From a virus, in the IMG/VR virus record IMGVR_UViG_3300046387_000195, positions 1 through 24,534 of that record: 24,534 nucleotides of DNA, one strand, 5' to 3'. The notes beneath the pieces are model-generated. The model did no database searches, was not told where the DNA came from, and saw nothing but the letters and a program-made list of their open reading frames with translations. Of this stretch, positions 1,072 to 1,726 are shown piece after piece (position 1 is the first letter of the stretch; the number at the start of each line of letters is the position of its first letter). The translations under genes and the position numbers were made by a program.

Positions 1072-1521
1072 CTATCTAAGATAGAGGTAACCACCTGCCC
1101 AGTCTGCTCTATTAAAGCAATCAACACGAGACTGCTCATCTAATAGATTGAAGCGTACGTATTTAGTGTGAGGAGACTTCCATGATGCAGGTTTATAAAC
1201 TGCACCAGTCTTCTTGTCAACAAATGCATGTACACCAGAGTCTCTATTCTCATTTCTATTCTGGAATGTATCGTACTCTACTTGTATAATCTTATGATAC
1301 TTGCGTCCTTCCTCAACTCTAAACGTAACTACATTCTTCTCAGTACCATCCTTGAGTGCTTTCAATTTGTTGACTGCATACTCTGAACCTTCACCTCTAG
1401 CTAGGGTTCTCTCTTGAGATGCTATACTGTAATTAATATATTGCTTGCCCAACACTTCACATAGTTCCTCAGTGTACTGTCTAACAGTATCAGTTACAGG
1501 AATGAATTGAGTTTTGGTCAT
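1072..1521 (-). CDS. conserved-type phage hypothetical protein, 149 aa
   Basis: The 149-residue product has an N-terminal helical half (about 1-60), a beta-rich middle (NVVTFRVEEG, HKIIQVEYDTFQ) and a highly characteristic C-terminus: VHAFVDKKTGAVYKPASWK, then KYVRFNLLDE and ADWAGGYLYLR. I associate that C-terminal block (VHAFVD...G.VYKPASWK...RFNL...AGGYLY) with a small protein common in marine T4-like phages whose function is unknown. It is the only gene after the structured leader at 1548-1691 and its promoter. No Shine-Dalgarno is visible in the A/T-rich 26 nt before ATG 1521. Its last codons contain the palindrome CTATCTTAGATAG. Confidence 0.85.
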   Translation of the reverse strand: MTKTQFIPVTDTVRQYTEELCEVLGKQYINYSIASQERTLARGEGSEYAVNKLKALKDGTEKNVVTFRVEEGRKYHKIIQVEYDTFQNRNENRDSGVHAFVDKKTGAVYKPASWKSPHTKYVRFNLLDEQSRVDCFNRADWAGGYLYLR

Positions 1522-1547
1522 TTAAAATAGTTAGAATTGAATTGAGG

Positions 1548-1691
1548 GTTGAGAGACTAGGGTAAGTAAATTACTTTAACGTCATGTCTCTGCTTCTATT
1601 AGACTTAAAGGACGTAATTTCTCTGCTGAACAGAGACAACCATAGATCCTTGCTTTTGTCAGAGTAGTTAGAAACCTAGTGATCTCTCAAC
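1548..1691 (-). ncRNA. structured RNA: long 5' leader or free small RNA, family unknown
   Basis: Read on the minus strand, the segment is closed by GTTGAGAGA (1691-1683) pairing with TCTCTCAAC (1556-1548) and CTAGG (1679-1675) pairing with CCTAG (1561-1557), a 14-bp stem with one 3-nt bulge. Inside are a 6-bp hairpin with a 5-nt loop (TCTCTG 1636-1631 / CAGAGA 1625-1620) and a bulged stem (1619-1615/1573-1569 and 1610-1605/1579-1574). A competing 7-bp pairing, GTCTCTG 1637-1631 with CAGAGAC 1592-1586, would open both inner hairpins, so the RNA may switch. The first base of the closing stem sits where transcription from the promoter at 1698-1726 should start. The 243-bp region has no credible ORF. 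It could be a cis-acting leader of the 149-aa gene or a stand-alone RNA; no poly-U terminator follows. Confidence 0.55.
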
Positions 1692-1697
1692 ATTTAT

Positions 1698-1726
1698 ATA
1701 ATAGTATATTTCAACGTCCGTGTCAG
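1698..1726 (-). promoter_or_regulatory. sigma70-type (early-like) promoter
   Basis: On the minus strand, CTGACA (1726-1721) and TATTAT (1703-1698) are spaced by exactly 17 nt. Transcription would begin near 1690-1692, which is the first base of the closing stem of the structured RNA. The ATG of the next gene is about 170 nt further on, an exceptionally long leader for this cluster. Confidence 0.65.

Follow-up and report, generated by a model that had tools for sequence, protein, structure and literature searches.

A putative promoter-anchored leader RNA of two nested, covarying modules in marine T4-like cyanophages

The structured element at positions 1691-1548 of the window (the whole stretch of 24,534 nt analysed here) most likely acts in cis, as the 5' leader of the mRNA for a 149 aa DUF7717 protein. 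Comparison with related phage sequences shows a common fold, covariation, a register between promoter and stem, and a position before genes; transcription, an effect on stability and a recognition role are what we infer from these. Whether the closing stem P1 protects the 5' end while the enclosed modules, A and B, act as recognition domains is a fuller proposal in which our confidence is about evenly balanced.

The 24.5 kb virus record is that of a T4-like cyanophage. A tail assembly chaperone and very long ORFs occupy 4.5-24 kb of the window, and 0-4.5 kb holds small genes of unassigned function, mostly on the minus strand. The 243 bp gap pointed out in an earlier, sequence-only reading was found at 1764-1522, between the ORFs at 1998-1765 and 1521-1072. 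The features of the gap and the following gene are:

1698-1726, minus strand: predicted promoter, with a -35 box CTGACA (1726-1721), a 17 nt spacer and a -10 box TATTAT (1703-1698); 10 of 12 consensus matches
1675-1691, minus strand: 5' strand of P1, with 1691 as predicted +1 (MFE fold, promoter register, compensated variants)
1660-1671, minus strand: 5' half of module B, comprising P2 (C)UAAC (1671-1667), UA and P3 CUCUG (1664-1660) (covariation; model R2)
1596-1658, minus strand: module A, in the loop of B (model R1 match of 82.1 bits, E 2.2e-25; covariation; column composition)
1577-1595, minus strand: 3' half of module B, comprising AAG, P3' CAGAG (1592-1588), ACAUGAC and P2' GUUA (1580-1577) (covariation)
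1548-1561, minus strand: 3' strand of P1 (MFE fold, compensated variants)
1522-1547, minus strand: single-stranded spacer of 26 nt from P1 to the ATG start codon (unpaired in the MFE fold; without a terminator)
1072-1521, minus strand: downstream gene, a predicted protein of 149 aa, DUF7717 / phrog_818 (ORF list and family matches)

The 14 bp bulged closing stem that had been read directly from the letters, with its first base at the predicted +1, was present in the MFE fold, where 1691-1683 paired with 1556-1548 (9 bp) and 1679-1675 with 1561-1557 (5 bp), separated by a 3 nt bulge. Energy-model folding thus recovered P1, but the stability of the fold was unremarkable (MFE -37.8 versus -31.1 for shuffled sequences, with 15 of 200 shuffles equally good; z -1.65), and single-sequence folding was dropped as proof of structure. 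Module B was paired otherwise in the free MFE fold than in the comparative model; imposing the comparative helices gave -36.5 versus -37.8 kcal/mol, and this constrained fold lost part of P2. Relatives carried three unrelated P1 sequence types, every one of them paired, and compensated variants occurred inside types (e.g. GUUGAGAGA/UCUCUCAAC and GUCAAGGGA/UCCCUUGAU). A shuffle-based score of P1 that allowed gaps over a broad, AU-rich span discriminated poorly, with only 28 % of the sequences' own stems above the 99th percentile of shuffles; the case for P1 is based on the compensated variants and on the promoter register instead.

The region was resolved into two RNA modules, an outer module B with stems P2 and P3 and an inner module A nested in its loop. 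The layout of B is P2-UA-P3-AC-[loop or insert]-AAG-P3'-ACAUGAC-P2', closed by P1. Module A has the consensus GCAAGGRUCUAUGGUUGUCUC-NN-UUCAG-NN-GAGAAAUUACGYCCUGUAAGUC and in the window consists of a stem (1649-1647 with 1612-1610) and a hairpin (1636-1631 with 1625-1620) with loop UUCAG and an invariant internal loop; the outermost pairs of this copy are unformed. The outermost helix is also the weakest of A generally (66 % of cells paired), in part owing to a shifting register. For 38 distinct sequences of A, 11 of 20 pairs changed on both sides and the covariation score was 0.267, compared with 0.121 for shuffled alignments (reached in 0 of 500) and at most 0.083 for slid ones. Module B, with 34 distinct sequences and 98.9 % of cells paired, varied on both sides in five of the six pairs of P2 and two of the five of P3, and scored 0.583 against 0.172 for shuffles (0 of 500) and at most 0.146 for slid alignments; the variable loop insert was excised from many of its rows. 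Slid controls preserve relatedness, unlike shuffles. The hairpin loop UUCAG was invariant across 86 distinct copies of A, as were the internal-loop letters UCUAUGGUUG and AAUUACG. Diversity and covariation are underestimated, since loci were gathered partly by exact patterns; nhmmer found no diverged copies of A in 2.2 Mb of loci, which were themselves partly chosen by exact pattern. The covariation proposed as a check in the sequence-only reading was found for A and B, and P1 varied with its pairing kept. By this comparison, the alignments show a real RNA-level structure at 1691-1548.

Module A resembles B in its 3' half (CAGAGAAAUUACG..GUAA in A and CAGAGACAUGACG..GUAA in B; window 1625-1606 and 1592-1571, minus strand), where a CCUG variant of B has ACAUUAC. 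A and B may be distant relatives of each other.

A mutually exclusive pairing of GTCTCTG with CAGAGAC had also been proposed. The letters are present (approximately 1637-1631 and 1592-1586), but the pairing was not conserved, and a switch of this kind was ruled out: relatives pair GUCUC.. within A and CAGAG with CUCUG (1664-1660) in B, and the nested copies at loci L117, L141, L160, L162, L099 and L191 have CAGAC, CAGTC or CAGG in B, which breaks the alternative. This bears on the possibility that A, B or both are aptamers for a metabolite or ion that control translation, in the manner of tandem riboswitches. A conserved aptamer-like fold in a 5' leader was indeed found, judged by covariation, fixed loops and position; invariant loop letters with compensated stems in all those copies of A are what aptamers display, and cyanophages do have leader RNAs in the form of glutamine riboswitches and manA. 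However, no expression platform was recognized, as there was no terminator in 1400-1850 of the window and the alternative pairing was broken in relatives; control through translation or mRNA stability may still operate. The start codon of the window gene was unpaired in the MFE fold, modules were freely swapped before the same gene, and the downstream genes had no nameable common pathway. A sensor of this type is considered unlikely, although a credible competitor.

The position of the 5' end was approached through the promoter. Since CTGACA-17-TATTAT ends at 1698, the standard +1 would be 1691, the first base of P1. Promoter-like matches as such were at background level in the scanned stretch (two found, 1.4 expected by chance). 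Among 77 distinct upstream sequences, most had a -10 box at a constant distance from the first base of P1; no conservation of a -35 box was detected among relatives aligned on that base. In type i leaders (n=30, including a few sequences of the third class) the frequencies were 0.90 for T at -12, 0.93 for A at -11 and 0.97 for T at -9, and in type ii (n=47) they were 0.98 for T at -12 and 0.94 for A at -11, with a TATAAT hexamer often 2 nt further upstream. This constant register places the start of P1 0-2 nt away from the expected +1. For the first five nucleotides, mean pairing probability was 0.88 in 62 B leaders, compared with 0.34 at -10-like sites between genes of P-SSM2 (n=72); among mixed leaders (n=63) it was 0.79, compared with 0.53 for their own dinucleotide shuffles. 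At the level of sequence, the leaders thus have what a 5'-terminal stabilizer calls for, a stem at the start site with few unpaired 5' nucleotides. In type i leaders, that of the window included, a TATAAAT overlaps the -10 box and might serve as a late promoter, in which case +1 would fall about 6 nt inside the stem. The sigma-70 reading is favoured by type ii leaders, in which the register is kept without TATAAAT. Leaders of the third class (type iii, e.g. L095, L112 and L286) start with AGUGAGAAACAG and are preceded by a conserved AAAGTGTCCTTATAGTG. At the usual register, their aligned upstream sequences showed no clear -10 box of the sigma-70 type, which is evidence against the preferred reading; perhaps another phage promoter class serves them.

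On the preferred reading, a transcript begun at 1691 would have its 5' end locked into P1 immediately, with no unpaired 5' tail. P1 would frame B, whose loop would bear A as an independent domain with invariant internal loops. The stem would shield the 5' end from 5'-end-dependent decay through a pyrophosphohydrolase and RNase E or RNase J, and the mRNA would live longer during infection; A and B would be recognition domains for some partner (a protein, an RNA or a small molecule) through which stability or translation is tuned. Bacterial mRNAs are known to be stabilized by 5'-terminal pairing, and RppH of Bacillus subtilis requires at least two unpaired 5' nucleotides (PMC3997798). In infection by the podovirus P-SSP7, host RNase E is raised and phage transcripts are thought to be protected (PMC9692554). 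That the register is conserved with unrelated P1 sequences suggests that the paired 5' end is what matters. Such protection would need no more than P1, and another explanation, namely a partner, is therefore called for by the invariant loops of A and B. Module-bearing leaders number only one or two per genome, which argues against general mRNA protection.

Searching phage records with the stretch by blastn gave matches in P-SSM2, P-SSM5, S-SSM4, S-SSM6b and single-cell marine viruses, all in intergenic or unannotated DNA; a 52 nt core was 98 % identical in P-SSM2, where the surroundings differ. A pattern scan found the core of A in at least 119 stretches of IMG/VR, whose contigs are fragments, from marine T4-like cyanophages. 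Elsewhere A follows B, lies inside other modules or is free-standing, and S-SSM4 has a B with a short loop and without A. No exact-pattern match to A was found in 84,980 genomes of cellular species that would point to a host origin. Whole records carry about one copy each of A and B (some contigs have two of A), and a scattered regulatory repeat was ruled out on this basis. P-SSM2 has a single copy each of modules A, B, C, D and G, all at 55.8-57.0 kb, where they form part of the PSSM2_070 and PSSM2_071 leaders. The near-identity of A in phages that share about 50 % at the protein level, in differing surroundings, is what would be expected if A were a DNA-level or mobile element spread by recombination, with no RNA function of its own. 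However, changes were confined to stems and were compensated, loops were fixed, and the promoter register and the strand relative to the next gene were largely kept; this explanation is very improbable.

A same-strand ORF of at least 60 aa started within 300 nt of 69 of 90 copies of A and 81 of 98 copies of B. The downstream genes belong to several small-protein families that differ between phages, and none of the downstream proteins scanned had a known function. The four closest DUF7717 homologues (L001-L004) all carry modules: L001 has B(A), and L002-L004 combine B, A and D. However, modules mostly precede other genes: they lay within 700 nt upstream of only 16 of 80 DUF7717 homologues, which rules out conservation tied to this gene, and the P-SSM2 homologue adjoining the module region has none. 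Downstream of modules in many contigs is a 42 aa acidic protein (..NFAEFLLENADTAADVLAVLDDVVEV..; PSSM2_071, L317 16933-17061), for which there were no Pfam or PHROG matches.

The sequence-only reading had offered a leader or a trans-acting small RNA of 144 nt. The latter would require that the structured 5' portion is released by cleavage or terminates ahead of the gene, to function as an sRNA or to lure away a host protein or defence factor as a decoy. It would accord with about one copy of each module per genome, clustered in one short stretch, with next genes that vary between phages and with compact folds that have fixed loops. No terminator-like site was seen, although processing by an RNase might still produce a 3' end, and same-strand start codons lie close downstream in most copies; the lack of a terminator and the nearby start codons together favour a cis leader over a stand-alone RNA. 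The leader is accordingly the favoured role of the two, and the trans-acting RNA is judged improbable.

The element had looked undescribed and unlike the glutamine riboswitch, and this was borne out. Rfam 15 gave no match in the window or in a further 121 kb of module-rich loci, and no relevant match at a permissive threshold in 47 kb, and the element was not described in the open-licence literature covered by full-text searches. In the P-SSM2 genome, used as a positive control, Rfam 15 detected manA, PhotoRC-II, a tRNA and the glutamine riboswitch, and nothing at 55.8-57.0 kb, where the modules lie. Neither the window nor the module loci reached the gathering score of manA, wcaG, PhotoRC-II or the glutamine riboswitch. 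The manA RNA (RF01745) is likewise a multi-stem leader of T4-like cyanophages that precedes diverse genes, and in P-SSM2 it shares a hairpin at the predicted +1; it differs in having no sequence or structure match and in lying at approximately 142.8 kb. That 5'-terminal hairpin is GUUGAA..UUCAAC (L322 2835-3034), and the manA leader had the best-paired 5' end among the 72 intergenic -10-like sites of P-SSM2. The glutamine riboswitch (RF01739), PhotoRC-II (RF01717) and wcaG (RF01761) are also structured cyanophage leader elements (PMC2864571; PMC9964418), but had no Rfam matches in the window or module-rich loci; the same search did locate the first two at other sites in P-SSM2. Stabilizing stems of the ompA/papA type in bacterial mRNAs likewise start at +1 and pair the 5' end (works listed in PMC3997798). 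P1 differs in enclosing two elaborate conserved modules and in being known from sequence alone. GOLLD and ROOL are phage-linked RNAs. These ornate RNAs form oligomers (PMC12286853) and resemble the present element as elaborate structured RNA outside protein genes; they differ in spanning many hundreds of nucleotides rather than approximately 144, in position, the element here being a leader, and in the lack of an Rfam match.

Seven or more other modules (C-I), delimited by eye and regular expression and not by covariance models, recur between genes and combine or nest with A and B (L317 16600-16905 in P-SSM2; L143, L183, L204 and others). One is tRNA-like, with GGGGGUUCAAUUCC, and an outer frame GGGCA..GUAAGUCCC is common to A, E and F. 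Module C is pseudoknot-like (GAGG/CCUC and GGAUGU/ACAUCC) and lies just before start codons (L082 3060-3136, P-SSM2). Inspection ruled out a coding peptide in C, as compensated changes in its stems would give different peptides and a frameshift occurs in one variant. A perfect 6 nt palindrome followed C in 62 of 63 distinct copies in related loci (CACGTG, GCTAGC, CTATAG, CCTAGG, CCATGG or TCTAGA), with self-complementarity kept and sequence not. RNA dimerization through this hexamer is possible, and it hints at RNA-RNA contacts such as those of GOLLD and ROOL. Tentatively, and with rather more doubt than confidence, marine T4-like cyanophages may share a kit of about nine or more RNA domains (A-I), shuffled, swapped and nested as mRNA leaders, in which the hexamer of C could allow dimerization.

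To our knowledge, nested interchangeable domains have not been described for phage leader RNAs. If the kit exists, it would be an RNA counterpart of protein domain shuffling, gathered in P-SSM2 in one short stretch. A and B are two covariation-backed RNA families new to Rfam 15, in viruses of abundant ocean cyanobacteria, and both are directly testable because they occur in the cultured phage P-SSM2. The promoter-anchored stem yields a concrete prediction about how phage mRNA may survive where host RNase E rises in infection.
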